A DNA stretch of 64,000 nt, from assembly GCA_017439985.1 (NCBI GenBank), contig JAFSIC010000044.1, forward strand, positions 80,676-144,675, in the 5' to 3' direction. The notes beneath the pieces are model-generated. The model was not told the origin of the DNA and ran no database searches. It worked only from the letters and a program-made list of their open reading frames with translations. The position numbers and the translations under genes are program-made. Every line of letters begins with the position of its first letter. Position 1 is the first letter of the stretch. Positions 36,286 through 49,791 of this stretch are shown here, in pieces. The DNA is from Oscillospiraceae bacterium. Lineage in GTDB: Bacteria > Bacillota > Clostridia > Oscillospirales > Ruminococcaceae.

Positions 36286-36945
36286 TTAAGTGCTTTTCTT
36301 CAAAATATCCACAATTTGTCCGTTGGACATGGCGATGATGCGGTCGGACATACTGAGTGCTTCCGGACGGTCGTGGGTGACCATGATCGTGGTCATATTG
36401 AAATCGCGATGGAGCTTCAGCACCAGCTCGCGCATTCCCTGACGCAGTTCCTCGTCCAGCGCGGAAAAAGGCTCATCCAGAAGCAGCAGTTTCGGCTTTG
36501 CAGCCAGCGCTCTGGCCAGCGCAACTCGCTGCTGCTGTCCGCCCGACAACTGATGGATCCGGCGCTTTCCATAGCCGGCCAGCTGTACTTTTTCCAGAAG
36601 CTCCCGCGCTGTCTGCAGGCGCTGTGCTTTGGGAAGCCGCTGCATCTTCAGCGGAAAGGCAATGTTGTCCTCCACATTCATATTGGGAAACAGACGCATA
36701 TCCTGAAAAACGATGACTGTTCCTCTTTTATGAATGGGCATCTGCGTGATGTCCTGCCCATCCAGAAAAATCTGTCCCTGTTCCACCGGAAGGATACCTG
36801 CGATGGCTTTCAGCAGGGTGCTTTTGCCGCAGCCGGAAGGGCCCTGCAAAGACAGGAACTCTCCCTGCGCCGCCTGCAGACTGATATCGGGCAGGATGCA
36901 GTCTTTTCCTATATTCACTGTTACATGTTCAATATTCAGTTTCAT
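36286..36945 (-). CDS. ynjD: ABC transporter ATPase, YnjD-like
   Basis: 219 aa. Walker A GPSGCGKST (near residue 35), signature LSGGQQQRVALARAL (near 132), Walker B LLLLDEPFSALD (near 153), H-loop THDRPEAL. Length matches E. coli YnjD (about 217 aa) and it lacks the regulatory tail of the CysA/PotA ATPases. Last gene of the transporter operon, overlapping the permease by 4 bp. Confidence 0.85.
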   Translation of the reverse strand: MKLNIEHVTVNIGKDCILPDISLQAAQGEFLSLQGPSGCGKSTLLKAIAGILPVEQGQIFLDGQDITQMPIHKRGTVIVFQDMRLFPNMNVEDNIAFPLKMQRLPKAQRLQTARELLEKVQLAGYGKRRIHQLSGGQQQRVALARALAAKPKLLLLDEPFSALDEELRQGMRELVLKLHRDFNMTTIMVTHDRPEALSMSDRIIAMSNGQIVDILKKST

Positions 36946-37742
36946 CGGGTTTCCTCTCCCCTCTCAAGATGATGGATCAACGCTTCAAACAGGAAGAAAA
37001 TCAGCAATGCCGAGCCTACAAAGACCACAGAATATACTGCGGAAAGAGCACGGTCACCGCTTTGGATGTAAGGAACCAGGACGAGAGCCAAGGTTTTTAC
37101 CCGTCCGCCGCCTATCAGCAGCGTGCTGAAATACTGGCTGTAGGACAAAATAAAGCCCATGCTCATGGAGGACAGGATCCCCGGCAGCAGAGCCGGTAAT
37201 GTCACTTGGAAAAAAGCCGTGAACGGTCCTGCTCCCAGTACCATAGCCTGCTCCTCCATGCGTTGACCTACCGCACGGGTCACATCAGTCATGATGGTAA
37301 TGCAGTACGGTACGGCGGCGATCAGGTGGACGATCACAACACCGACTAATGTATCGCTGAGTCCAAGGCGGATCAGCGTGATCTGGATGCCCATGGCAAA
37401 AACGGTGCCCGGAACCAAAAGCGGCAGGAAGCTGCCTATACGCACGAAGCTTTTTCCTTTGAAGTCATAAAACTCTGTGGCTCTTGCTGTGAGGATGCCC
37501 ACAACAGTAGCTAAGAATGCTACAATGGCTGCCAGCGTGATACTGCTCAGGAGAAGATCCGGCAGCTTTGCCGAACCGAAGAACAGCTCCTGCAGAGTAC
37601 GCAGCGTGTAGCTTTCCGGCAGGAGATTCGGCCAGGGCCAGCGGCCTGTAACGCTCCACAACAGCAGTACCGCGATGGGCAGCAGAATGCTGACACCTGT
37701 GATCAATAAAATCAGCTTTAGAAAGGTCTGTTGCTTCATCAT
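36942..37742 (-). CDS. ABC transporter permease, second half of a YnjC-like pair
   Basis: 266 aa, six predicted membrane helices and the EAA loop (MEEQAMVLGAGPFTAFFQVTLP, split near residues 160-180). In E. coli, YnjC is one long protein with two permease domains; here the two halves are separate genes, and this is the downstream one. Its ATG overlaps the stop of the first permease (ATGATGA). Confidence 0.85.
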   Translation of the reverse strand: MMKQQTFLKLILLITGVSILLPIAVLLLWSVTGRWPWPNLLPESYTLRTLQELFFGSAKLPDLLLSSITLAAIVAFLATVVGILTARATEFYDFKGKSFVRIGSFLPLLVPGTVFAMGIQITLIRLGLSDTLVGVVIVHLIAAVPYCITIMTDVTRAVGQRMEEQAMVLGAGPFTAFFQVTLPALLPGILSSMSMGFILSYSQYFSTLLIGGGRVKTLALVLVPYIQSGDRALSAVYSVVFVGSALLIFFLFEALIHHLERGEETR

Positions 37743-38608
37743 TCCCTACCTCCTGTTTGTTTCAGCAGCTTGCGGGTCAGCAAGGCATAGAGCAAGGCCA
37801 TTGCCAGCGACAGGAACAGAATCACGCCGTTCATCGCCATGGCATACGGTCTGTCACGGAGTTCCGGGCTGGTGTAGGCCATATACGCCTGCACCGGCAG
37901 AGCTTTCGGAACGGTGGTGCCCAGGAGGAAAGGCAGTTCATAGCCGCCAAATGCGAAGATAAAGATAATGAGAAATGCTTTCAGCGCGGCAGGAAGGCTC
38001 AGTGGCAGCGTGATTTGGAAGAAACTGCGCCACGGCGATGCCCCGAGGTTTTCCGCCGCTTCCCCCAATGTACTGCTGATACTGCTCATCAGTGCGAGAA
38101 CAAAATAGGCAACGAAAGGGATCTCTTTCCAAAGGTAAGCCGCGATGGCTGCGCCGTAGTTTTCCGTGTAGAGCAAGGCAGGAAACTGATTAAAGTCTAT
38201 AATAAAGCCCAGCATATAAGCGATGCGGGCGAAGAGCCCTGTCTGCGAGAACAGACTAATAACAAAAACCGCAACCACTGCATGGGGCATGAGAATGGGC
38301 AGGCGCACCAGATAGAGCAGCTCGCCCTTGCTGTGTCCGCGCTTCACCAAAGCATAGCACAGTAGTACACCCAGCATTGTCGCCAACAGTGCGGACTGCA
38401 GGGCAATGCGCAGGCTGACTTCCAATGCAGAGAGAAATTCCTCCTGCTGAAAGACTGCTTTGTAGTAATCCAAGGTCAGCGTCGTCAGACCGAAAGCGGG
38501 AATGTAGCCCAGACTTTGCAGCAGTACATTCCAGATGGAAACAAGAATCAGCGCCATAATGACGAAAAACGGCAGCAGTAATAAATATGGAGTATAGGAT
38601 CGTTTCAT
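37739..38608 (-). CDS. ABC transporter permease, first half of a YnjC-like pair
   Basis: 289 aa from the ATG at 38608 (MKRSYTPYLLLLPF). Six hydrophobic segments and an EAA loop (LGEAAENLGASPWRSFFQITLP, near 180-200). It follows the binding-protein gene after an intergenic terminator, so its level depends on read-through. Confidence 0.85.
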   Translation of the reverse strand: MKRSYTPYLLLLPFFVIMALILVSIWNVLLQSLGYIPAFGLTTLTLDYYKAVFQQEEFLSALEVSLRIALQSALLATMLGVLLCYALVKRGHSKGELLYLVRLPILMPHAVVAVFVISLFSQTGLFARIAYMLGFIIDFNQFPALLYTENYGAAIAAYLWKEIPFVAYFVLALMSSISSTLGEAAENLGASPWRSFFQITLPLSLPAALKAFLIIFIFAFGGYELPFLLGTTVPKALPVQAYMAYTSPELRDRPYAMAMNGVILFLSLAMALLYALLTRKLLKQTGGRE

Positions 38609-38626
38609 AGATACCTCCCGACATAG

Positions 38627-38656
38627 AAAAAACGGTGCAAACATGCACCGTTTTCT
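38627..38656 (-). terminator. Partial terminator between the binding protein and permease genes
   Basis: Perfect 11-bp stem AAAACGGTGCA / TGCACCGTTTT with T-run on the minus strand, inside the operon. Such hairpins give more binding protein than membrane subunits. Confidence 0.8.
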
Positions 38657-38674
38657 ATTGTAGCGTATTTTATT

Positions 38675-39892
38675 CTACTTGCCAACTACTTCGTTGAGCC
38701 AAATTTCCTCGATGATCGGAACGAGGCTTGCAGGCATTTCCGGCAGGCGGTGTGCCAGCAGTTCTGCCTGAGAGAGTACGCCCTGACCAAGGTCTACTGC
38801 ACCAAAGGCGGCCTTTTCGTCAGCGCTCAGCTTGTCGGTGGCAACGACAGGCAGTTCTTTCAGCTGTGCGTACTGAGTCAGCTGGATGTCCGCGGAGATG
38901 ATCTCGTTGATGACAACCATTGCACCGGCTTTGTTTGGTGCATCGTAGGCAATCGCCATGTAGTTGGTGTTGCCGATGGTGCCGTTGTCAAAGACGAAAG
39001 TGCGGGTGGTATCGGTATAGATACCCTGATCAATGCCGGTAGCCACGGAGAATGGGCTGTAACTCATGTTCATCACTACTTCGCCGTCAGCAAACATGGC
39101 ATCCACTTTGGTGGAGGATTCCGGGAAGGATTTGCCCTGATTCCACAGGTATGGGTTCAACTGGCGGAGGTAATCCAGCGCCGGCTCGATGGCGGTTTTC
39201 ACGGTATCATAGTCAGCTTCCATGGTCTGGAACTGCTCCCAGCCGCAGAGATCGTAAATGATGTTGCGGACAAAGGCAGAACCGGTGAAGTCCGGCAGAG
39301 CCGGATAGGTCACTTTGCCTTCGTATTTCTTGCAGAATTCCATGAATTCTGCAGCATTGGCAGGAGTTTCCGGAGTCACAGCACTGTCATTGAACAGGAC
39401 CATCTGCGCTTTTGCGTAAGGAGCTTCGTAGCCGTCGATCGGCATGCAGAAGTCGTTGAGAGTTTCCGGATCGTCCAGATCAATGTAGTTTTCCATGTTT
39501 GGAAGTTTATCGGTAAATGGGCCGTAGAGCAGACCGTTTTCCTTGGCAGAATAGAAGTTCTCGCCGTTGATCCAGATCATATCGATGCTGCCTTTGGTGG
39601 CATTGGCTTGTTTTTCACCGGAAAGTTTGGCAAGAATATCGTTGATATCCATGCCTACCACTTCCAGAGTAATGTCGTATTTGTCCTTCACCTGCTCGGC
39701 AACAGTGGTGTTGAGCCAGTTGTTGCGGTTTTCGTCGCCGCCCCAGCCGTAAAAAGTGACGGTGCTGCCTTTTGCAGCTTCCACGATTTCATCCCAGCTT
39801 GCATTCTGCGGATCGATGCTCTGCTTGGAAGCGGAGCAGCCGCTCAGGCTCATTATGCCTGCCAGCAGCAGAGCCAGCCATTTCTTCATCAT
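38675..39892 (-). CDS. ynjB: YnjB-like ABC transporter substrate-binding lipoprotein
   Basis: 405 aa. Lipoprotein signal (MMKKWLALLLAGIMSLSGC; Cys near residue 20 in the lipobox LSGC). The segments VTFYGWGGDENRNNWL and SIDMIWINGENFYSAKENGL match the E. coli YnjB pattern. The family resembles thiamine/iron/sulfate binding proteins but the ligand is unknown. First gene of ynjB-permease-permease-ynjD. Confidence 0.85.
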   Translation of the reverse strand: MMKKWLALLLAGIMSLSGCSASKQSIDPQNASWDEIVEAAKGSTVTFYGWGGDENRNNWLNTTVAEQVKDKYDITLEVVGMDINDILAKLSGEKQANATKGSIDMIWINGENFYSAKENGLLYGPFTDKLPNMENYIDLDDPETLNDFCMPIDGYEAPYAKAQMVLFNDSAVTPETPANAAEFMEFCKKYEGKVTYPALPDFTGSAFVRNIIYDLCGWEQFQTMEADYDTVKTAIEPALDYLRQLNPYLWNQGKSFPESSTKVDAMFADGEVVMNMSYSPFSVATGIDQGIYTDTTRTFVFDNGTIGNTNYMAIAYDAPNKAGAMVVINEIISADIQLTQYAQLKELPVVATDKLSADEKAAFGAVDLGQGVLSQAELLAHRLPEMPASLVPIIEEIWLNEVVGK

Positions 39893-39944
39893 AAAATTCC
39901 CTTCCTTTTCTTATGATTAGTCTGTGCTAACACAGTTCTTTATT

Positions 39945-39973
39945 AGAATAGAGGAAAGGAGCTAAATCGTCAA
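39945..39973 (-). promoter_or_regulatory. Promoter of the YnjBCD-like operon
   Basis: Minus-strand TTGACG, 17-bp spacer, TATTCT (context CTATTCT). An inverted repeat CTGTG-CTAA-CACAG at 39922-39935 lies just downstream and could be an operator. Confidence 0.6.
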
Positions 39974-40056
39974 GCTGTTCCGCTTGAAATGAACACTTCA
40001 TTGAAATAATCAATCAAATTTCCGATTTTTAGGATTTTTTCCTATGGTGAGAACAA

Positions 40057-40085
40057 TGGACAAGCCGGGTTGAATCGGGTATTAT
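40057..40085 (+). promoter_or_regulatory. Promoter of the nucleoside hydrolase/transferase operon
   Basis: TGGACA, 17-bp spacer, TATTAT, preceded by a small inverted repeat TAGGA-TTTTT-TCCTA at 40030-40044. Divergent from the transporter promoter. Confidence 0.55.
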
Positions 40086-40115
40086 GAAGATATATTGCAA
40101 TCCTTGGAGGTCATT

Positions 40116-41003
40116 ATGCTGAAAAAAGTGATTTTTGACTGCGACAATACCATGGGCATCGACGGTTACCCGATGGACGATGCGCTGGCTTTTCTTTATG
40201 TGCTGGGAAATCGGGACAAAGTGGATCTGCTGGGCTTTATCTGCACCTTCGCTAACGGCACAGCGGCGCAGGTTTACGAAGCATCCCGACAACTGCTGCA
40301 GGAGGTCGGCTGCTCTGCCCTGCCGCTGCTCAAAGGCGCTGAAGCAAACGAAGATCCCCGTTCCGAAGCGGCACAGTTTATCGTGGATATGGCAAATCGT
40401 TACCCCGGCGAAGTATCTGTGCTCGCCATCGGTTCCATGACCAATCTCTACGGCGCATGGCTCATCGATCCGCAGATTTTCGACAAACTGGAGCGCTGTG
40501 TCCTCATGGGCGGTATCACCGAGAAGCTGTACACCCACGGCGTTCACTGCCCGGAACTGAACTTCTCCATCAACGCCCATGCTTCCGCTGAGGTCTTTAC
40601 CCACGGCAAGAATCTTTCCATTATCACCGGCAACAACTGTCTGTCGGTCTCCTACCTGCCGAAAGAGGAATTCATGGAGAAAATGGAGATCGACAAGCGC
40701 CCTGTCAGTGCCTATGTTGCCCGCAAATGCGGCTACCGCTTCGATTGCCGCAGGGAAATTTACGGCGAAGAAGGCTCCTACTGCTGGGATGCGATCGCTG
40801 CGGCATATCTGCTCTACCCCGAGCTGTTCGAAGACCATTTGACCGCCTGTGACATCTCCGAGGAGCATCTACAGGATGGTTCCCTTATGCCTTGTGAAAA
40901 CGGCAAAACCATCCTCAACCTGCCTGTTGCCAAAGATGCTGCCGCATTCCGCCGCAATCTCTACGAAAGCTGGCTGAAACTGGATTTCGTTGTGGAGGAC
41001 TAA
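40116..41003 (+). CDS. Nucleoside hydrolase family protein
   Basis: 295 aa from the ATG at 40116 (GGAGG upstream). Family members cleave the N-glycosidic bond of (ribo)nucleosides using a Ca2+ held by an N-terminal Asp cluster. Here FDCDNTMGIDGYPMDDALAF has the Asp set with a longer loop than the classic DxDPGxDD, a variant common in Clostridia. LAIGSMTNLY, VLMGGI, ELNFSINAHA and the C-terminal WDAIAAA are all present. Whether the substrate is an ordinary nucleoside or a modified one linked to the cluster is open. First of four plus-strand genes. Confidence 0.85.
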   Translation: MLKKVIFDCDNTMGIDGYPMDDALAFLYVLGNRDKVDLLGFICTFANGTAAQVYEASRQLLQEVGCSALPLLKGAEANEDPRSEAAQFIVDMANRYPGEVSVLAIGSMTNLYGAWLIDPQIFDKLERCVLMGGITEKLYTHGVHCPELNFSINAHASAEVFTHGKNLSIITGNNCLSVSYLPKEEFMEKMEIDKRPVSAYVARKCGYRFDCRREIYGEEGSYCWDAIAAAYLLYPELFEDHLTACDISEEHLQDGSLMPCENGKTILNLPVAKDAAAFRRNLYESWLKLDFVVED

Positions 41004-41004
41004 G

Positions 41005-41670
41005 ATGAAACGTGCTGTCATTTGCTTTACCCGTGTTCCCAAAGCGGGACAGACAAAGACACGTCTGCTGCCGATTCTGTCTCCACAGCAATGTGCCGAT
41101 CTCCACACTGCCTTTTTGCAGGACTTGGCACAGCTGTATGAATGTTTCCCTGCCGACTTGTTTGTTGCCTATACGGCTGACCCCGACTGGGAACAGCTGA
41201 AGAAGATTTTCCCTACGGCGAAGGCTTTCTTCCCTCAGGATGGTGAGGACTTGGGAGCTAAAATGCTCCACGCCATGGAGAATGTGTTGACTTTGGGCTA
41301 TGAAAGCTGTATCCTCACGGGCAGTGACCTGCCGCTGCTCTCCTCTGCACAGCTGGAAAGCGGATTTCGTGCATTGGAACAAGCCGATGTAACGCTCGGC
41401 CCCACCCCCGACGGCGGCTATTATCTGGTGGGTTCCAAGAAACCTTGCCCTGCGCTGTTCCGCAGTCAGACTTACGGCGGCTCCACCGTCTGGGAAAATA
41501 CCCTCGCCGCCGCGGAACAAGCCGGCTTCTCCGTTCTGCCCGCTCTCCCCTGCGACGATGTGGACAATCCCGACGACCTGCGGTCTCTGTGGAAAACCAT
41601 TGCCGGAAACGGCAGTTATACTGCCCGTTTCCTTGAACAAATCCGGAAAGAAGGTGTGTCCCTGTGCTAA
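41005..41670 (+). CDS. TIGR04282 family GT-A transferase
   Basis: 221 aa. A nucleotidyltransferase-like GT-A fold: FTRVPKAGQTKTRLLP at the N terminus, ILTGSDLPLLSSAQL (near 108), and GPTPDGGYYLVGSK (near 138), all typical of TIGR04282, a family named from arsenosugar gene clusters but of unproven function. ATG at 41005 with GGAGG upstream, one base after the previous stop. The TIGR04283 partner is two genes on. Confidence 0.85.
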   Translation: MKRAVICFTRVPKAGQTKTRLLPILSPQQCADLHTAFLQDLAQLYECFPADLFVAYTADPDWEQLKKIFPTAKAFFPQDGEDLGAKMLHAMENVLTLGYESCILTGSDLPLLSSAQLESGFRALEQADVTLGPTPDGGYYLVGSKKPCPALFRSQTYGGSTVWENTLAAAEQAGFSVLPALPCDDVDNPDDLRSLWKTIAGNGSYTARFLEQIRKEGVSLC

Positions 41671-42686
41671 ATCGACCTGAGTTTCAATCTTATGTACAAA
41701 GTGAATGCTTTTTGCGCCCGCTGGGCTTGCCTATGGGTACCGAGCTGTCCTTTGCTCTGTTGGGACAGGGTGAGTACAATCAGAATTTCAGCTTTATCCA
41801 TCCACTGACGCAGCAGAAGCTGGTTCTGCGCATCAACACCGGCAGCCAGATGCACTTGGAAAACCAAATCGAATATGAATTTTCCGCTCTCAAAAATCTG
41901 GAAGCCAGCGGCAGAACACCGAAGGCTCTCTTCTGCGATAACAGCAAGTCTATTCTTCCTTACGGTACCCTTGTCATGGAATGGCTGCCCGGTCGGCCAC
42001 TGGATTATCGCCGCGATTTACAGAAAGCGGCAGAGATTTTTGCCGACATTCACAGCACGCCTGTGCCTGCCGGGCATCAGCTCATGGAGCCGGCTCACCC
42101 TGCCAAGGCGATCTATGATGAGTGCATGGAAATGTTCACACATTATTTTGACTGGGAACAGGCTGATCCTGTCATTGTGCGTCTGCTGGAAGAACTTATC
42201 TCCGAAATCGGCAGGCTGCCTCTCTGTGATGGCTCCTCTGCTCCAAAGTGCATCGTTAATACGGAGGTCAACTCCGGTAACTTCCTCATCAATAAAGAAG
42301 GAAACAGTTATCTCATCGACTGGGAAAAACCACTGCTCTCCGAAGCGGCACAGGACCTGGGACATTTCCTCGTTCCTACCACAACGTTCTGGAAAACCGA
42401 TGTAATTTTGACCCCTGATGAAATTCGCGGCTTTGTGGAACTTTATGAGAAAGCCATGAACGGGCGCATGGATACTTCCTGTCTGTCGGAGCGTCTGCCG
42501 CTGTTCTTCACGGTCACCTGCCTGCGCGGTGTGACCTGGTGCGCTATGGCTCTGCGTGAGTATTCTCAGCCGGACCGCCCGCTCAGCAACGCCGACACAC
42601 TGGCAAAAATCAAGGACTACATCAATGAGGATTTCCTGCGGAAACTTCTGAACAACTATGTCCGCAAGAATTTCCTGCGAGGTTAG
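41664..42686 (+). CDS. APH/choline-kinase-like phosphotransferase with an atypical catalytic loop
   Basis: 340 aa; GTG start overlapping the previous gene by 7 bp. Kinase fold with N-lobe Lys region (LVLRINTGSQ), VMEWLPGRPL hinge, and the DFG-like LIDWEKPLLSEAAQDLGHFL. The catalytic loop that normally reads H-x-D-x4-N is VNTEVNSGN here: His to Asn and catalytic Asp to Glu, with the metal Asn kept. It may be a weak or specialised kinase acting on a sugar or amino alcohol made by its neighbours (inference). Confidence 0.75.
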   Translation: MLNRPEFQSYVQSECFLRPLGLPMGTELSFALLGQGEYNQNFSFIHPLTQQKLVLRINTGSQMHLENQIEYEFSALKNLEASGRTPKALFCDNSKSILPYGTLVMEWLPGRPLDYRRDLQKAAEIFADIHSTPVPAGHQLMEPAHPAKAIYDECMEMFTHYFDWEQADPVIVRLLEELISEIGRLPLCDGSSAPKCIVNTEVNSGNFLINKEGNSYLIDWEKPLLSEAAQDLGHFLVPTTTFWKTDVILTPDEIRGFVELYEKAMNGRMDTSCLSERLPLFFTVTCLRGVTWCAMALREYSQPDRPLSNADTLAKIKDYINEDFLRKLLNNYVRKNFLRG

Positions 42687-42687
42687 T

Positions 42688-43365
42688 ATGAAAATTTCTC
42701 TCATCATCCCCATTTATAATGAAAGCGCCAAAATCGCCGCCTGTCTGGAGCAGCTGGAGAAACTCCCCGGCGACTGGGAAATTCTTTTTGCCGATGGCGG
42801 CTGCAGCGACGACACCTTGACACAAATCGGTGGAAAATATCCTGTCATCGCCTGCCCGAAAGGACGCGCCAAGCAGATGAACTGTGCAGCGAAGCACGCC
42901 ACTTCCGATGTGATCTGGTTTGTACACTGCGACAGTCGGCTGCCTGTGGATGCTCACGCACAAATTTCCGATGCGATTGAAAAAGGCGCGCAGTTCGGCT
43001 GCTTCCACATTGCTTTTGACTACAACGGACCGTTCATGGGCTGCAACACCTACCTGTCCAACCGCCGTGCTAAAAAAAGTCACATCGCTTTCGGCGATCA
43101 GGGTATCTGGATGCAGCGAAAACTGTTTCTTCAGCAGGGCGGCTTCCCCGATCTGCCCATCATGGAGGACTACGAACTGTCCCGCCGCATGAAACAACAG
43201 AAAATCCCATTGCATGTGCTGCCGGGATGCATCGTCACCTCCGGGCGACGCTACGAAAAACGCTTCCCCCTGTGGACCATGTGGCAAATGTTCTGGCTGC
43301 GCTGCCTGTACCGTGCCGGCGTGGACATCAATGAAATCGCCCGCCGCTACAAAGATATTCGCTAA
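42688..43365 (+). CDS. TIGR04283 family glycosyltransferase 2
   Basis: 225 aa from the ATG at 42688. GT2 signature ISLIIPIYNESAKIAACLEQL, donor-site Asp in ILFADGGCSDDT, WFVHCDSRLP (DxD-like), and MEDYELSRRMKQQ. TIGR04283 is the usual partner of TIGR04282. The family has been named for arsenosugar biosynthesis, but it is much wider than arsenic loci. Last plus-strand gene of the four. Confidence 0.85.
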   Translation: MKISLIIPIYNESAKIAACLEQLEKLPGDWEILFADGGCSDDTLTQIGGKYPVIACPKGRAKQMNCAAKHATSDVIWFVHCDSRLPVDAHAQISDAIEKGAQFGCFHIAFDYNGPFMGCNTYLSNRRAKKSHIAFGDQGIWMQRKLFLQQGGFPDLPIMEDYELSRRMKQQKIPLHVLPGCIVTSGRRYEKRFPLWTMWQMFWLRCLYRAGVDINEIARRYKDIR

Positions 43366-43369
43366 ACAA

Positions 43370-43397
43370 AAAAGCCTCGGTCTTTACCGAGGCTTTT
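43370..43397. terminator. Bidirectional terminator between convergent operons
   Basis: Stem AAAAGCCTCGGT / ACCGAGGCTTTT, loop CTTT; it overlaps the last codons of the Fe-S protein gene. Confidence 0.85.
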
Positions 43398-44172
43398 GAT
43401 ATTTCTGTTGAAATGTTGTACGGAAGCGATTCCCCCAGCCGCGCTGAACACTGGCTCCAAAGAGCAGCTCCAGCAGATGAAGACAGTCTCTGCCTTCGCC
43501 TCGGAACGCTCCCAGGCAGCCTTCACAGCTGCTGAGGATCCTGCGCTCCTGCGGAAATTCACTGAGTCGGCGCTGACAAACTTCCGCCGACTTTTCCGGA
43601 CGCAGCGTATGCAGCATGTGGAAGTTTCCGCAGCAGATGGTGTTTGCGCCGTTGTGTGTCGGTTCAATGACATCGCAGCCGCTGAGTTTCAGAAGCTGAC
43701 GCACGGCATTCTGCTGCTCCGCGTCGCGCTTTGTGACGCAGGGGTCATGCCAGATAAAGGAACCCTCTGTGTGCTGAATATCCTCTTTATCACAAAGCTG
43801 AGCCAATAACGGCCACACAGAATAAACATCGCAGGCATGCAGTTGTTTCAGTTGGATCGTGCAGTTGGGGCAAGCGGTATAGATGCGCTGTACCCCCTGC
43901 TGTTTCAGCAAAGTACGGAGTCGCTCCTGCCCTTTCTTTGCCTGCTGAGGAAAAAGATACGCACTGGGCTGTCCGCAGCAGCAGGTGCAGAGCTGGATCG
44001 TCGGCTCTGCACGACGGAGGACAGCAAGCGTTTTCTCCAGAAGTTCTCCGTCCAGATTCAGCAGCGCACAGCCGGGCCAGAACAAAGCTTCCGCTTTGGG
44101 AACGTGCATCAGTAAGCTTGAAAAAGACAAGCCCTGATGGATTTTCATACCTGTCAGTCCGGATCGTGCCAT
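43384..44172 (-). CDS. CCG-domain Fe-S protein, HdrB-like
   Basis: 262 aa. Two CCG (Cys-Cys-Gly) domains: PGCALL with CTCCCGQPS (residues 33-68) and HDPCVTKR with TICCGNFHM (near 140-185), plus CPNCTIQ and SCEGCLG. This arrangement binds the noncubane 4Fe-4S cluster of heterodisulfide reductase HdrB and related thiol/disulfide or quinone-linked proteins. It overlaps the TVP38 gene by one base (TAATG). In the related E. coli region an Fe-S protein (YdjY) sits between two TVP38 proteins, though it is of ferredoxin type. Confidence 0.82.
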   Translation of the reverse strand: MARSGLTGMKIHQGLSFSSLLMHVPKAEALFWPGCALLNLDGELLEKTLAVLRRAEPTIQLCTCCCGQPSAYLFPQQAKKGQERLRTLLKQQGVQRIYTACPNCTIQLKQLHACDVYSVWPLLAQLCDKEDIQHTEGSFIWHDPCVTKRDAEQQNAVRQLLKLSGCDVIEPTHNGANTICCGNFHMLHTLRPEKSAEVCQRRLSEFPQERRILSSCEGCLGAFRGEGRDCLHLLELLFGASVQRGWGNRFRTTFQQKYQKPR

Positions 44173-44873
44173 TATTTCTGCGCCTTCTTTGCCTGATAGG
44201 TGTCATACATCTGCTTGAGGATGGTGCTGAAAATGCCCAGACCAAAGAGACAAAGCAGACCGGTCACCAGCCATCTTGCACCTCCTGTCAGCATACCTCC
44301 AACGTAGGAGTACACAATGGTTGCCGGCAGCTGGCCGATTCCGGTCGCGAGGAAGAACGGCAGGAATTTGATTGGAGTGAGACCTGCAAAGTAGCTGACC
44401 GCATCGAAGGAAACAAAAGGAAGCAGACGGCAGACCAGAATGGTTTTGCTGCCGTATTTTTCAAAGTAGCCCTCTACGGCTGCCAGCGCACCCTTGCCTG
44501 CGAATTTTTCCACCACATCACGACCCAGTGCGCGTGCGATGAGGAAGCAAAGGGCTGCACCCACCATTGCGGAGCTCCAGGACAGGATAGCGCCCTGCCA
44601 CCAGCCGAAAATGGCAGCATTGGAAACGGTGATGAGGAAGGCCGGCAGCGGTGCCAGCAGAGAAGAAAAGACCATCAGGCTGAAGGATACCACCACGGCA
44701 AATGCGCCAAAGGAACGGATATACTCGATGACGGCATCTACGTTGGCCGAACCCAGCACGGAGGTCACCGTGTCCACGGTATTTTTCACAGAAGGTACAC
44801 AGAAGTACAGCAGTACCGCCAGAAGAATCAGCGCTACGGTGATCCAGCGTCCATAATTATGTTTCTTTGTCAT
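44172..44873 (-). CDS. TVP38/TMEM64 family membrane protein (second copy)
   Basis: 233 aa from the ATG at 44873 behind AAGGAG, overlapping the first TVP38 gene by 17 bp. About six hydrophobic segments with the SNARE-associated/DedA-like core (SNAAIFGWWQGAILSWSSAM and RLLPFVSFDAVSYFAGLT). These proteins are thought to be lipid scramblases or carriers; YdjX/YdjZ of E. coli belong to the same family. Confidence 0.88.
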   Translation of the reverse strand: MTKKHNYGRWITVALILLAVLLYFCVPSVKNTVDTVTSVLGSANVDAVIEYIRSFGAFAVVVSFSLMVFSSLLAPLPAFLITVSNAAIFGWWQGAILSWSSAMVGAALCFLIARALGRDVVEKFAGKGALAAVEGYFEKYGSKTILVCRLLPFVSFDAVSYFAGLTPIKFLPFFLATGIGQLPATIVYSYVGGMLTGGARWLVTGLLCLFGLGIFSTILKQMYDTYQAKKAQK

Positions 44874-45552
44874 TGTTTTCGCTCTCCTTGTCGTTGTTTG
44901 TTGAGGATGGAAGAAGTTTCTTACCCAGCACTGTTGTAACTGCCAACAGAAGCAAAAGCAAGGCAATGGCAAGCCAGAAGGATGCCGATGTCACATCCAA
45001 TACCTTGTCGCCGATGTTGATGAAGGCCAATGTACCGGGGATGATGCCCAATGCCGAAGCCAACAGATAAGAACGAAAGCTCATCTCTGTCAGACCGAAG
45101 CTGTAATTGATCAGATTATAGGGTACGGCAGGAATCAGGCGCAGAATGATCAGCAGAAGAAAGCCCTGCTTCCCTGCTGCAGTGTTCAGGCGCCGCTGCC
45201 AGTCGGGACTGAGCTTTCGCTGTAGCATGTTCCGTACCTGTTCTCGTCCGAAGGAACGAGCCATGAAGAACATCAGGCTGCAGTTGAGGACAGCTCCCAG
45301 AAAGGTGTAGATACTGCCGCGAAACAATCCGAAAAGCAGTCCGCCTGCCAGTGCCAGGATCGGCACCGGAAAGAAAAAAGCAGGTAAAAGCACCCACAGA
45401 CCGATATATGCCAGCGGAGCGGCACTGCCAAAGCGGGACAGAAGCAGCTGCAGCTCCTGCGGTGACAAAACAGTGGACAGCTTCCAGGTCAACAGGATCA
45501 GCAACGCAAAAAGGAGCAGCAGAAGCAAGTGCTTTTTGTTCGTTTGTTTCAT
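44857..45552 (-). CDS. TVP38/TMEM64 family membrane protein (first copy)
   Basis: 231 aa. Core FPVPILALAGGLLFGLFRGS and LRLIPAVPYNLINYSFGLT; reentrant loops typical of the DedA superfamily. C-terminal tail is acidic/Asn-rich (NNDKESENNDKET). First gene of the minus-strand operon TVP38-TVP38-Fe-S protein, divergent from the rhodanese lipoprotein. Confidence 0.88.
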   Translation of the reverse strand: MKQTNKKHLLLLLLFALLILLTWKLSTVLSPQELQLLLSRFGSAAPLAYIGLWVLLPAFFFPVPILALAGGLLFGLFRGSIYTFLGAVLNCSLMFFMARSFGREQVRNMLQRKLSPDWQRRLNTAAGKQGFLLLIILRLIPAVPYNLINYSFGLTEMSFRSYLLASALGIIPGTLAFINIGDKVLDVTSASFWLAIALLLLLLAVTTVLGKKLLPSSTNNDKESENNDKET

Positions 45553-45587
45553 TTTATATCTCCTGTTGCAAAGGATATTTTGTAACC

Positions 45588-45617
45588 AGTTTAACTGAGA
45601 CTTTCCACACTTGTCAA
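45588..45617 (-). promoter_or_regulatory. Promoter of the TVP38 operon
   Basis: Minus-strand TTGACA, 18-bp spacer, TAAACT. Confidence 0.55.
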
Positions 45618-45624
45618 CGACCGA

Positions 45625-45645
45625 TCCATAGATAAAATCTATGGA
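45625..45645. promoter_or_regulatory. Perfect palindrome in the divergent promoter region
   Basis: Arms TCCATAGAT and ATCTATGGA around AAA. It lies 7 bp upstream of the TVP38 -35 box and 36 bp upstream of the rhodanese -35 box, a position suited to an activator serving both. No regulator gene is adjacent. Confidence 0.65.
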
Positions 45646-45681
45646 GACACTGCCTTTTGTCCGTTGGAAAAATTCCTATGA

Positions 45682-45710
45682 TTGACAAAAGTCTGTCGCT
45701 TTGCTATTCT
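45682..45710 (+). promoter_or_regulatory. Promoter of the rhodanese lipoprotein
   Basis: TTGACA, 17-bp spacer, TATTCT (context CTATTCT). Confidence 0.75.
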
Positions 45711-45754
45711 TTCCTTGCTTTTCAAAAGCAATATTATGTTTATGGAGGTTTACC

Positions 45755-47353
45755 ATGAAAAGAATTCTTGCTGCTCTGATGTGCGCGCTGATGGTTCTCA
45801 CTATGATGGCCGGCTGCACTCAGGAACAGGCTACCACTACCCCACCTGCAGAAAACAAAGTAGAAGCTCCTGCTTCCGATGTTGCTATGCAGTACAAAAC
45901 CGTTGACGAAGCAGAAGCTCTGCTGAATGACGACAGCTACGTGTTCTTCGACGTTCGTAAAGCTGCTGACTCCTCTGCTGCTACCATCCCTGGCGCTCTG
46001 GCTTACGACATGGATGCTGCAAAAGAAGGCAACTTTGAAGCAGGCGTTGCTACCATGACCCCTGCAATCAAAGATCTGGACAAAAACATCATTCTGGTTT
46101 GCTACTCCGGCAAACGCTACGCTCAGGCTACCACCAACGTGTTGTCTGCTCTGGGCTACGATATGTCCAAAGTTTACACTCTGGAAGGCGGCTTCACCGC
46201 TTGGTCCGAAGCCGGCAAAGCAACTTCTGCTCCGGAAGAAGCTCCTGCTAAAATCGAAGCTCCTGCTTCCGACGTAGCAATGCAGTACATCACCGTTGAC
46301 GATGCTGAGAAAGTTCTGAACGATGATTCTTACGTATTCTTCGACGTACGCAAAGCTGCTGACTCCGCAAAAGCTACCATTCCGGGCGCTCTGGCTTACG
46401 ACATGGACGCTGCAAAAGAAGGCGACTTTGAAGCAGGCGTTAAAGTAATGCAGGATGCAACCAAAGATCTGGACAAAAATCTGGTTATCGTATGCTACTC
46501 CGGTAAACGCTACGCTCAGGCTACCACCAACGTACTGTCCGCTCTGGGCTACGATATGTCCAAAGTTTATACTCTGGAAGGCGGTTTCACTGCTTGGAAC
46601 AAAGCAAACAAAGAAGTTCTGATCGCAGATGACATCAAAGCTCCTGAAACTGACGTAGCTATGCAGTACATCTCTGTTGCTGATGCTGCTAAAGTTCTGG
46701 GTGATGAAAATTACGTATTCTTCGACGTTCGTAAAGCTGCTGACTCCTCCGCTGCTACCATTCCGGGCGCTGCTGCTCACGATATGGATGCTGCAAAAGA
46801 AGGTGACTTTGCTCACGGCGTTGCTACCATGCAGCTGGCTACCCGCGGTCTGGACAAAAATATCGTAATCATCTGCTACTCCGGTAAATCCTACGCTCAG
46901 GCTACCACCAACGCTCTCTCCGCTCTGGGCTACGATATGTCCAAAGTTTACACTCTGGAAGGCGGCTTCAAAGCATGGTCCGAAGCATTCAAAGATGATG
47001 TTGCTATGAACTACATCGCCCCTGCTGATGCTCTGGCTGTTCTGGAAGATGATTCCTATGTATTCTTCGATGTTCGCAAAGCTGACGACCATAAAGCCGG
47101 TCACATCAAAGGCTCTCTGAGCTACGACATGGACGCTGCAAAAGAAGGCGACTTCAATGCAGGTCTGGCTACCATGCTGGAAGCTACCAAAGATCTGGAC
47201 AAAAATGTCGTTGTAATCTGCTACTCCGGTAAACGCTACGCTCAGGCTACCACCAACGCTCTGTCCGCTCTGGGCTATGATATGTCCAAAGTCTTCACTC
47301 TCGAAGGCGGTATGAAAGCTTGGACCGACGCCGGTTACGCTACCGAAGCTTAA
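45755..47353 (+). CDS. Lipoprotein with four rhodanese domains
   Basis: 532 aa from the ATG at 45755 (GGAGG upstream); reading from an earlier codon would bury the signal. Lipobox TMMAGC (Cys near 22). Four rhodanese domains follow (about 45-155, 170-285, 295-410, 415-530), each with the loop CYSGK and QATTN(V/A)LSALGYD. The first three are near-identical and have lost the usual GHI(P/K)GA histidine (SSAATIPGA or SAKATIPGA); the fourth keeps KAGHIKGS. All four catalytic Cys remain. The protein would be tethered to the outer face of the membrane, next to two TVP38 proteins encoded divergently. YnjE, the multi-rhodanese of E. coli, is the functional parallel. Confidence 0.9.
   Translation: MKRILAALMCALMVLTMMAGCTQEQATTTPPAENKVEAPASDVAMQYKTVDEAEALLNDDSYVFFDVRKAADSSAATIPGALAYDMDAAKEGNFEAGVATMTPAIKDLDKNIILVCYSGKRYAQATTNVLSALGYDMSKVYTLEGGFTAWSEAGKATSAPEEAPAKIEAPASDVAMQYITVDDAEKVLNDDSYVFFDVRKAADSAKATIPGALAYDMDAAKEGDFEAGVKVMQDATKDLDKNLVIVCYSGKRYAQATTNVLSALGYDMSKVYTLEGGFTAWNKANKEVLIADDIKAPETDVAMQYISVADAAKVLGDENYVFFDVRKAADSSAATIPGAAAHDMDAAKEGDFAHGVATMQLATRGLDKNIVIICYSGKSYAQATTNALSALGYDMSKVYTLEGGFKAWSEAFKDDVAMNYIAPADALAVLEDDSYVFFDVRKADDHKAGHIKGSLSYDMDAAKEGDFNAGLATMLEATKDLDKNVVVICYSGKRYAQATTNALSALGYDMSKVFTLEGGMKAWTDAGYATEA
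45880..47340 (+). repeat. Tandem coding repeats of the rhodanese lipoprotein
   Basis: Four units of about 345-390 bp; the active-site codons recur near 46100, 46492, 46873 and 47218. Units share long exact DNA blocks (for example around GCTACGCTCAGGCTACCACC), so copy number could change by recombination. Confidence 0.85.
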
Positions 47354-47534: not shown

Positions 47535-47572
47535 GAAACCTCCTGCCGAAATCAGCAGGAGGTTTTTTCGAT
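47535..47572 (-). terminator. Terminator of the PII-like/DUF1538 operon
   Basis: Stem AAACCTCCTGC / GCAGGAGGTTT, 8-nt loop, T-run on the minus strand. Between 47405 and 47535 no gene is seen. Confidence 0.85.
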
Positions 47573-48261
47573 TATATACCCATGACGCTGTCGATCGGCA
47601 GGGACAGAACCAGGCCCTCTGCCTCGCTGTGCATGCCGCAGCGTTCGCTGATGGCACGCATGATGCCGACTTTCATCTCATGGTCGGCAAGAATCAGCAC
47701 CAGTTCTTTTTCCTCATGGACACCCAAGCCCCAAACATTTGTGGCTTCTTCGCTTCCGATGCTGCGGCTGTGCATCAAGGTACCGCCGCGGGCGCCGGCT
47801 GCTCTTGCAGCATCCATCACTTCTCCGCCAAAGCCGCGGTTCACAATGGCTGCAATGAGCACATATGTAGATTCAGACATATAAATCTCCTTCCTTCCCT
47901 TGTCGGAACCTTCGATGACTTCCGCTGTGTGCGTCATCATACGCAGCAGCAGATTGTTTGCCGCTGTCAGCGGAATGGTGAAAGCGATGCCGCTGTTGAC
48001 TGCATCGAGACGCAGCTCCGAATGCAGTTTGCCCAGCATCAGCTTGCCGAAGGATTCCGGCACGGTACTGATCAGCACACCTTTATCGCTGCTGCCCAGA
48101 CCCAATGTATCCATGATCTGACTGGAGGCAGTCCCCTCCGCGTAGAAGCGGTACTGAATGGGCAGAGCGCTCTTCAGGAACAGATCTGCCGCTTTATCCG
48201 TCAGTTTTGGGGAGGCGATCAGCACAAGCAGCTGATAGCGTCTATTTGCTTTTTGTTCCAT
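47572..48261 (-). CDS. PII-like signalling protein (two ferredoxin-like repeats)
   Basis: 229 aa. Two halves: LLVLIASPKLTDKAADLFL and VLIAAIVNRGFGGEVMDAARAAGARGGT, the latter a PII T-loop/core pattern. Paired with the DUF1538 membrane protein; the stop of that gene is directly at the start here. PII-like proteins usually gate an adjacent transporter in response to nucleotides. Confidence 0.82.
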   Translation of the reverse strand: MEQKANRRYQLLVLIASPKLTDKAADLFLKSALPIQYRFYAEGTASSQIMDTLGLGSSDKGVLISTVPESFGKLMLGKLHSELRLDAVNSGIAFTIPLTAANNLLLRMMTHTAEVIEGSDKGRKEIYMSESTYVLIAAIVNRGFGGEVMDAARAAGARGGTLMHSRSIGSEEATNVWGLGVHEEKELVLILADHEMKVGIMRAISERCGMHSEAEGLVLSLPIDSVMGI

Positions 48262-49791
48262 CTACCATGCCACCTCCAGATCAATGATTTCATCGCTGTC
48301 ATCGCTAATTCCGGTAGGCTGCAGAGCAGTTTTCTGGAGCTTATCGGTTTTGAATTTATAAACAAGACCCATGATCTGAATAGCGATCAGTGGAGTCAGC
48401 GCAACCAGCGCAACCACACCGAAGGCATCGGTCATCAGATTACCGCCGAGAGCCTGGCAAGTGCCGATGCTCAGCGGCAGCAGGAAGGTCGAAGTCATCG
48501 GACCGCTGGCTACGCCACCGGAGTCGAATGCGATACCGACGAAAATTTTCGGAACAAACACAGACATCAGCAAGGCGACGATATAGCCCGGAATGATGAT
48601 GTACTGGATCGGAATACCCAGCAGAACACGCAGCATCGCGGTGCCGATACTGATCGCAACACCGATGGACATGGAGCGGTTCATGGCTTTCACGGAGATC
48701 GCGCCGTCGGTGACGGTCTCTACCTGATGGTTCAATACCTGAATGGCAGGCTCCGCTTTGACGATGTAGTAACCGATCAGCATACCGATCGGAACAATAA
48801 CCCAGTTGAAGCTGAGAGACGCCAGTTCTTTGCCGATCAGGGCGCCCACCGGCGCAAAGCCCACATTAACACCGCAGAGGAAGAGCACCAGACCCAAGTA
48901 TGTATAAAGGAGACCCACGATGATTCGTTTGATCTGTCGCTTCTGATAGCGGTGGGTCAGGAACTGGAAAATCGCAAACACTGCTGCGATCGGTGCCAGA
49001 GAAATAAAGACCTCATTGGCGTATTCCGGAATTTCGTGAAAGAATACCTGCACCACATCGCGGGTGGTTCCCACGCTGGCAACATCCGACATGGAGTACG
49101 CCGCCTCCGTCGGACGATAGAAGCAGCCTAATACGAGCACTGCAAGAATTGGTCCGACGCTGGAGAGCGCAACCAGACCGAAGCTGTCGCTGGCGGAGTT
49201 TTTGTCCCCTCGCAGAGAAGCGAGACCGACACCCATCGCCATAATAAACGGTACCGTCATTGGTCCGGTGGTCACGCCGCCGGAGTCAAAGGCAACCGCA
49301 AGAAAAGCATCAGGCACCAAGAAGGACGCGCCAATAAGAAAAACATACAGAATGATCAGGAGCTTGGACAGACTGATCTGATAGCGGATACGGACAATGG
49401 CCAAAGCCAGGAAAATACCGACACCAACGGCAACAGTCAGAATCAGCACCAGATTCGGCACCGATGGCACCTGTTCCGCCAGCACCTGCAGGTCCGGCTC
49501 GGAAATGGTAATGATCAGACCCATGGCAAAGCCGATGAGAACGACCCACCAGATATTTTTGGTTTTGGATACCTGAACGCCGATGCCTTCACCGATCGGT
49601 GTCATCGCCATCTCGGCACCCAACTGGAAGAAGCCCATACCTCCTATCAGCATGACGGCGCCCACAAGGAACATCGTCATTGTCCCCAGCTCCACCGGCG
49701 CAAGCAGAATGCTGATGAGCAGCACAATGCCCGTGATCGGAAGAACCGCAGAAAGGGATTCCAATGTTTTTTCTTTTAATTTGGAATTCAA
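48262..49791 (-). CDS. DUF1538 family membrane transporter
   Basis: 509 aa with about 12 hydrophobic helices in two homologous halves, each with the motif FDSGGV(T/A)(T/S)GPMT (near residues 172 and 412). The duplicated DUF1538 fold is transporter-like; substrate unknown. Almost always next to a PII-like protein. First gene of the two-gene operon. Confidence 0.85.
   Translation of the reverse strand: MNSKLKEKTLESLSAVLPITGIVLLISILLAPVELGTMTMFLVGAVMLIGGMGFFQLGAEMAMTPIGEGIGVQVSKTKNIWWVVLIGFAMGLIITISEPDLQVLAEQVPSVPNLVLILTVAVGVGIFLALAIVRIRYQISLSKLLIILYVFLIGASFLVPDAFLAVAFDSGGVTTGPMTVPFIMAMGVGLASLRGDKNSASDSFGLVALSSVGPILAVLVLGCFYRPTEAAYSMSDVASVGTTRDVVQVFFHEIPEYANEVFISLAPIAAVFAIFQFLTHRYQKRQIKRIIVGLLYTYLGLVLFLCGVNVGFAPVGALIGKELASLSFNWVIVPIGMLIGYYIVKAEPAIQVLNHQVETVTDGAISVKAMNRSMSIGVAISIGTAMLRVLLGIPIQYIIIPGYIVALLMSVFVPKIFVGIAFDSGGVASGPMTSTFLLPLSIGTCQALGGNLMTDAFGVVALVALTPLIAIQIMGLVYKFKTDKLQKTALQPTGISDDSDEIIDLEVAW

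Follow-up and report, generated by a model that had tools for sequence, protein, structure and literature searches.

Why should one clostridial genome assemble an orphan ABC importer of the YnjBCD family, a nucleoside hydrolase, transferases of the TIGR04282 and TIGR04283 families, a kinase-like protein, an Fe-S protein, a pair of TVP38 membrane proteins and a four-rhodanese lipoprotein within a single locus? The locus lies at positions 36286-47353 of a 64,000-nucleotide stretch from an Oscillospiraceae bacterium (hereafter the window) and holds twelve genes in four units (4+4+3+1), one more than a preliminary description of the same DNA had counted. Genomic context provides a fair case for a link to arsenosugars: the parts recur as one module across genomes, loci and gene fusions, and YnjBCD together with the hydrolase stands where sister loci carry ArsS. 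The locus is tentatively read here, at slightly less than an even chance, as a variant of the arsenosugar pathway that lacks ArsS and is fed by an importer.

Layout of the locus

The families named in the preliminary description had been placed correctly (the TIGR and NF008633 cut-offs are passed and the Pfam domains are found), and its arrangement of four units around two divergent gaps also holds. Unit 1 (ATPase-permease-permease-YnjB, four genes) and unit 3 (CCG-TVP38-TVP38, three genes) are on the minus strand, and unit 2 (nucleoside hydrolase-TIGR04282-APH/kinase-like-TIGR04283, four genes) and unit 4 (the rhodanese lipoprotein, one gene) on the plus strand. The features are as follows (aa, amino acids; ORF, open reading frame).

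36286..36945, minus strand: YnjD-like ABC ATPase (ABC ATPase families; 38% identity to E. coli YnjD over 194 aa)
36942..37742, minus strand: ABC permease A, corresponding to one half of YnjC, a fused permease in E. coli (PF00528; 26% identity to YnjC over 157 aa)
37739..38644, minus strand: ABC permease B (ABC permease families; weak match to YnjC)
38675..39892, minus strand: YnjB-type solute-binding lipoprotein (NF008633, 440.6 bits, cut-off 203)
39893..40115: divergent intergenic region, promoter-like sites on both strands
40116..41003, plus strand: nucleoside hydrolase (PF01156, 120 bits; start chosen, longest ORF from 40095)
40990..41670, plus strand: TIGR04282/DUF2064 protein, CofC-like (176.5 bits, cut-off 134; PDB relative 3cgx)
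41664..42686, plus strand: APH/choline-kinase-fold protein with the catalytic loop N-x-E-x4-N (PF01636)
42658..43365, plus strand: TIGR04283 GT2-type transferase (228.9 bits, cut-off 182)
43370..43397: 12-bp inverted repeat, terminator-like, between convergent units
43384..44172, minus strand: Fe-S protein with two CCG domains (PF02754 in two stretches)
44172..44882, minus strand: TVP38/VTT protein a, YdjZ-like (PF09335; longest ORF runs to 44972)
44857..45552, minus strand: TVP38/VTT protein b, YdjX-like (PF09335)
45553..45748: divergent intergenic region, promoter-like sites on both strands
45749..47353, plus strand: four-rhodanese lipoprotein (PF00581 in four stretches, 218 bits; longest ORF from 45701)

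TIGR04282 and TIGR04283 both stand above their cut-offs with one gene between them, and the importer belongs to YnjBCD in that its binding protein exceeds the NF008633 cut-off and is accompanied by permeases and an ATPase. The two divergent gaps give no sign of common regulation, in that no word of at least nine bases is common to both. A search for known RNA elements at the locus gave a single match, to SurA, at 17.6 bits and far below the gathering score of 100 bits. A selenoprotein inside the locus was also considered and rejected, since extension of the twelve genes through in-frame TGA codons yielded nothing coherent.

Co-occurrence of the module

In a class sample of 291 Clostridia genomes, TIGR04282 and TIGR04283 each exceed the cut-off in 11, and the 11 are identical (hypergeometric 3.8e-20). 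The kinase-like family, called with profile A4 at E <= 1e-40, is present in nine genomes, all within these 11 (G091 and G185 are without it), and YnjB is present in 11, eight of which belong to the same set (hypergeometric 2.3e-11). YnjB and TIGR04283 are inside one cluster in G000 (the window's genome), G109, G141 and G259, close to contig ends, on two different contigs, in G055, and apart in G169, G190 and G284, which belong to one genus.

A scan of named genomes with an alignment of the kinase-like protein revealed 352 stretches encoding relatives, too many for the system to be rare among anaerobes. Locus counts out of 80 refer to the best 80 of these 352, ranked by similarity to the window protein; they derive from Oscillospiraceae, Lachnospiraceae, Tissierellia, Terrisporobacter, Clostridioides and Coriobacteriia such as Adlercreutzia and Raoultibacter, and 24 are shorter than 14 kb. 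Genes in the loci were called with a home-made ORF picker and home-made profiles, those for rhodanese and ATPase possibly including false hits; matches under the score floors were dropped before counting, and L043-L046 were omitted from the locus map. Some sequence is common to both genome collections, L107 being identical to G259 C74. Within the 80 loci, TIGR04283 and TVP38 are each found in 65, TIGR04282 in 63, the CCG protein in 57, rhodanese in 52, YnjB in 44 and the nucleoside hydrolase in 34, followed by a C-GCAxxG-C-C protein (21), a 148-aa protein (18), a TIGR04169-like protein (14) and ArsS (12). TIGR04282, TIGR04283, TVP38, CCG, rhodanese, YnjB, permease B and the hydrolase occur all together in 14, and L105, L106, L114 and L124 are clear clusters.

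Gene fusions, scanned in 97 loci, join TIGR04282 to TIGR04283 in 25, to CCG in three, to CCG and TVP38 in two (L065 and L126), to the nucleoside hydrolase in two (L051 and L054) and to the kinase in one (L040). The triple fusion of L126 is confirmed by Pfam, and L101 has a natural TIGR04282-TIGR04283 fusion.

The co-occurrence is robust across genomes, loci and fusions, which bears out the earlier suggestion that the parts are one conserved module; a neighbourhood check had been set beforehand, and since co-occurrence is above chance, the co-occurrence half of that refutation test was passed. A chance neighbourhood of unrelated operons would fit the four separate units and the divergent gaps without a common operator, but is contradicted by the co-occurrence, by the repeated rearranged clusters and by the fusions, and its probability is negligible.

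Some observations were made alongside. The triple-fusion genes are single ORFs of 763 aa (L065 6882-9173) and 751 aa (L126 5620-7875), each comprising a TVP38 membrane domain, TIGR04282 (DUF2064) and a ferredoxin-CCG part. The 148-aa protein (L104 3998-4444 and 17 other loci) has no above-threshold Pfam or NCBIfam match, and in 14 of its 18 loci its gene lies no more than 300 bases from one for TVP38. Directly behind the G141 cluster (L031 413-6466) lies a second, SsuABC-like transporter with two nucleoside hydrolases nearby, and a heavy-metal P-type ATPase with homologues in L094 and L119 adjoins the G109 cluster (L030 3793-5625).

Exchange of ArsS for YnjBCD and the hydrolase

In L101, from a Eubacteriales metagenome-assembled genome, ArsS (TIGR04167, 442 bits, cut-off 300) lies between AhpD-like and C-GCAxxG-C-C genes in a run that also holds TIGR04169, and ArsS loci were defined by homologues of this protein. 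Among the 80 loci ArsS is present in 12, YnjB in 44 and both in none (Fisher 2e-5); at loci of at least 14 kb the corresponding figures are 10, 34 and 0 of 56. YnjB accompanies the nucleoside hydrolase in 32 of 34 loci, the exceptions being the short contigs L047 (8.9 kb) and L116 (6.9 kb, with ArsS). Since no locus combines ArsS with YnjB and the hydrolase is tied to YnjB, YnjBCD and the hydrolase take the place of ArsS. The 12 do not include L112, where ArsS is incomplete at the end of the contig, and a tblastn search of the kinase-like loci for ArsS that is split or interrupted by TGA gave no extra intact copy. At the genome level, ArsS exceeds the cut-off in six of the 14 module genomes; the window's genome (about 94% complete) has none over the cut-off, its best match reaching 28.3 bits against 300.

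Three of three proteobacterial ArsS clusters hold TIGR04283, TIGR04282, TVP38 and 5'-methylthioadenosine (MTA) phosphorylase and are without the kinase or the hydrolase, and MTA phosphorylase occurs in none of the 97 clostridial loci. An ordered scheme may be drawn from this, with phosphorolysis by MTA phosphorylase in Proteobacteria versus hydrolysis plus a kinase in Clostridia, and TIGR04282 and TIGR04283 acting next. MTA phosphorylase was also tried as a partner in kinase-less genomes and set aside as non-discriminating, with matches in 31 of 45 and matches over the cut-off in 10 of 45.

Arsenic and selenium around the module

Six of the 14 module genomes contain ArsM (NF008823, E up to 1e-30), as against none of 36 comparison genomes, which were hand-picked from the class sample and not random. 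In the window's genome the ArsM match reaches 294.9 bits (cut-off 263), and an in-frame TGA stands at a CxxG-type position, with VSGA next; in the ArsM of G185 an in-frame TGA precedes VGGS. The former TGA is at L129 2083 (C35), directly before VSGA and in the place of the CxxG-type cysteine. ArsM selenoproteins with a UxxG motif are listed in part of PMC13188914, and to judge from its reading frame the ArsM of the window organism is probably a selenoprotein. Known arsenic genes also adjoin some clusters: ArsR and ACR3 (336 bits, cut-off 283) in L107, ACR3 in L110, and ArsR with an ArsP-type permease in G141, while in G109 genes resembling ArsR and ACR3 form part of a separate operon, on the stretch that also encodes ArsM.

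Where the preliminary description had spoken of a chalcogen or arsenic, arsenic is thus favoured by ArsS in sister loci and by ArsM, and selenium correlates too, selD being present in 13 of the 14 module genomes versus 66 of 291 in the class. The same enzymology might therefore serve a 5' group other than an arsenical, so that 5'-methylthio-, 5'-deoxy- or seleno-ribosides are salvaged and the modified ribose is put on a surface lipid or polymer. The natural substrate of MTA phosphorylase, the partner in the three proteobacterial clusters, is 5'-methylthioadenosine, which counts for such a group, as do the selD excess and the fact that the window locus itself holds no known arsenic gene. However, ArsS lies within the same cluster in 12 of the 80 loci, ArsM is enriched, and the in-frame TGA in G000 and G185 could account for selD, which leaves a non-arsenic substrate somewhat unlikely. 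The selD excess may reflect selenoprotein ArsM and ArsS, though a selenium substrate is possible, and a pathway defined by selenium was accordingly set aside as the principal reading and kept as a rival. Upstream of the G055 cluster there is an ORF with one in-frame TGA (L026 8541-10592), either a selenoprotein or a defect.

Properties of the individual proteins

At its last Ca ligand the nucleoside hydrolase carries Trp-Asp instead of His-Asp: W224-D225 is invariant in 18 of 18 sequences and aligns with the His-Asp of group I structures. A Trp before the last Ca-binding Asp is described as a mark of purine-specific group II hydrolases in part of PMC8910321. A structural model of the YnjB protein resembles glycoside-binding proteins.

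The kinase-like protein has the APH fold. The canonical catalytic loop of APH-type kinases is HxDxxxxN; N-x-E-x4-N is found here in 42 of 42 sequences, while the aligned solved structures (n=2) have Asp. In a structure search, choline kinase, homoserine kinase and N-acetylhexosamine 1-kinase score near one another and do not single out a substrate, and MTR kinase is not among the 50 matches listed, which excludes nothing. If the kinase acted on an imported choline-like alcohol, with activation by TIGR04282 and transfer by TIGR04283, the locus would be a surface decoration system like LicABC, which we consider very unlikely.

The CCG protein, which we take to be HdrB-like, is without the ferredoxin part present in relatives (L028, L041 and L126), and matches NF045663 (diclust_near_Sec) at 117 bits, below the cut-off of 530 and over only part of the profile. 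Each of the four domains of the rhodanese lipoprotein has a CYSGK[RS] loop, and its N-terminal MMAGC is lipobox-like. Beside the rhodanese gene, on the opposite strand, a DUF1538 protein is encoded at 48262-49791 of the window; its partner ORF (47572-48261) has no Pfam family at E 0.001. Farther on, 52117-54243 encodes a molybdopterin oxidoreductase of formate dehydrogenase/thiosulfate reductase type, which reaches none of the curated cut-offs listed.

Proposed pathway

An import-and-salvage step is suggested by the exchange of ArsS for YnjBCD; gene content, co-occurrence, fusions and this exchange are observed, whereas all substrates, the sequence of the reactions and arsenic itself are what we infer. 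YnjB with the two permeases and the ATPase would import a riboside carrying a 5' group, most likely a methylated arsenical, from which the nucleoside hydrolase would strip the base (or an aglycone) to free a 5-modified ribose. The kinase-like protein and TIGR04282 would convert this ribose to an activated sugar, and TIGR04283 would pass it to an acceptor such as glycerol, a lipid or undecaprenyl phosphate. Passage of the lipid-linked product, or of its carrier, through the membrane might then fall to the TVP38 pair, with the CCG protein giving reducing power and the rhodanese lipoprotein handling sulfane sulfur outside, possibly for thiolation. The re-glycosylation and the surface sulfur transfer are plausible from the protein families involved. 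A more specific version would be organoarsenic salvage by gut and sediment Clostridia and some Coriobacteriia, in which YnjBCD imports foreign or dietary arsenoribosides, a purine-type hydrolase and an atypical kinase feed TIGR04282 and TIGR04283, and an arsenosugar or thio-arsenosugar lipid is displayed or exported; this version is possible, if doubtful.

Several points weigh against an arsenosugar pathway fed by import. The hypergeometric and Fisher values ignore kinship among the genomes. Six of the 80 loci have none of TIGR04282, TIGR04283, TVP38 and CCG near the kinase-like gene. G169, G190 and G284 carry both ArsS and YnjBCD, so the exchange holds per locus and not per genome, and across genomes the presence of MTA phosphorylase does not mirror the absence of the kinase. 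ArsM is limited to the six module genomes, three of them over the cut-off, and arsenic neighbours are few (ArsR in three, ACR3 in two and ArsP in none of the 80 loci). The kinase-like protein has Glu for the canonical catalytic Asp, and the hydrolase profile matches plant and IU-type hydrolases (best E 1e-37) better than the purine-specific IAG-NH (E 1e-6 to 1e-8). Finally, in E. coli none of TIGR04282, TIGR04283 and the kinase adjoins YnjBCD and the TVP38 pair, and therefore YnjBCD need not serve the sugar branch.

YnjBCD is termed uncharacterized in part of PMC9207381, and a paper on E. coli transporter knockouts has ynjB and ydjX as table entries, with no substrate in the portion covered. 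Titles and the starts of abstracts in the open-licence literature gave nothing on the module, on a tested function of TIGR04282 or TIGR04283, or on the YnjBCD substrate, and no test of enzymes acting after ArsS in arsenosugar formation; most subscription literature was outside this scope, and novelty is unproven. Two arsenosugar glycosyltransferase annotations are merely listed among arsenic genes in part of PMC13077682, and the gut flora is reported to convert an arsenosugar to its thio form (PMC6656958, which names no genes in the part consulted). If organoarsenic salvage is true, it would provide the first substrate class for the YnjBCD family and name genes for this thiolation, and the genes could serve as markers for arsenosugar handling by gut bacteria.

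Comparison with known systems

The preliminary description had likened the locus to ydjXYZ-ynjABCDE of E. coli K-12, in which a TVP38 pair, an Fe-S protein, YnjBCD and a multi-rhodanese protein are likewise neighbours. The likeness stands for YnjBCD (YnjB 34% identity over 398 aa) and for the TVP38 pair (YdjZ 52% over 206 aa with protein a, YdjX 33% over 145 aa with protein b). It fails for the Fe-S protein, since YdjY belongs to the NF040466 family whereas the window protein is of the CCG type with no listed NF040466 match, and YnjE shares rhodanese domains only. The E. coli stretch, moreover, is without TIGR04282, TIGR04283, kinase and hydrolase, has the AhpD-like YnjA and not TIGR04169, and encodes one fused permease, YnjC, where the window has two. 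FNR directly activates ydjXYZ-ynjABCD and ynjE (part of PMC3688515), and the E. coli set is therefore anaerobic too.

On plasmids of Ilyobacter and Metabacillus, YnjBCD is accompanied by TVP38, a CDP-alcohol phosphatidyltransferase and an FAD oxidoreductase, in Ilyobacter also by rhodaneses, and in Peptoclostridium acidaminophilum the hydrolase directly adjoins YnjBCD. From these neighbourhoods and that of E. coli, the combination of YnjBCD, TVP38 and redox proteins appears older or wider than the sugar branch. YnjBCD also lies beside a CDP-alcohol phosphatidyltransferase, as in the case of E. coli ynjF, in Fusobacteria, Bacilli and Alphaproteobacteria (L144 8001-12452, L145 6971-11560 and L143 7303-11481), a link to lipid headgroups.

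YnjBCD, TVP38, CCG and rhodanese might thus be a system of their own for an oxidised S, Se or As compound, merely travelling with the TIGR04282-kinase-TIGR04283 unit. The E. coli, Ilyobacter and Metabacillus stretches, as far as they were read, combine YnjBCD and TVP38 with redox or rhodanese proteins and the phosphatidyltransferase and have no TIGR04282 or TIGR04283, and G040 and G269 likewise carry YnjBCD-TVP38-CCG-rhodanese without either. Such independence is unlikely, however, in view of the TIGR04282-CCG fusions in five loci (two including TVP38), the tie of the hydrolase to YnjBCD and the presence of TIGR04282/TIGR04283 in eight of 11 YnjB genomes.

The selenocysteine-assisted organometal (SAO) system (part of PMC13188914) resembles the window locus in its ABC importer, its selenium linkage and its proposed organometal chemistry. 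The proteins scanned gave matches below the cut-off only: SaoA in the window ATPase (198 of 360 bits) and, in G141, SaoP in the second transporter (146 of 295) and SaoE in the ArsP-type permease (115 of 325).

The arsenosugar ArsS clusters on plasmids of Acinetobacter portensis and Burkholderia glumae share TIGR04282, TIGR04283 and TVP38 in one cluster with the window, TVP38 being fused there to an FAD oxidoreductase. Where they have MTA phosphorylase, the window has YnjBCD, the hydrolase and the kinase-like protein, in a genome without ArsS. Clostridial ArsS clusters such as L101 share with the window TIGR04282/TIGR04283, the kinase-like protein, CCG, the TVP38 pair and rhodanese, and in these clusters TIGR04169-ArsS-C-GCAxxG-C-C replaces YnjBCD and the nucleoside hydrolase of the window.

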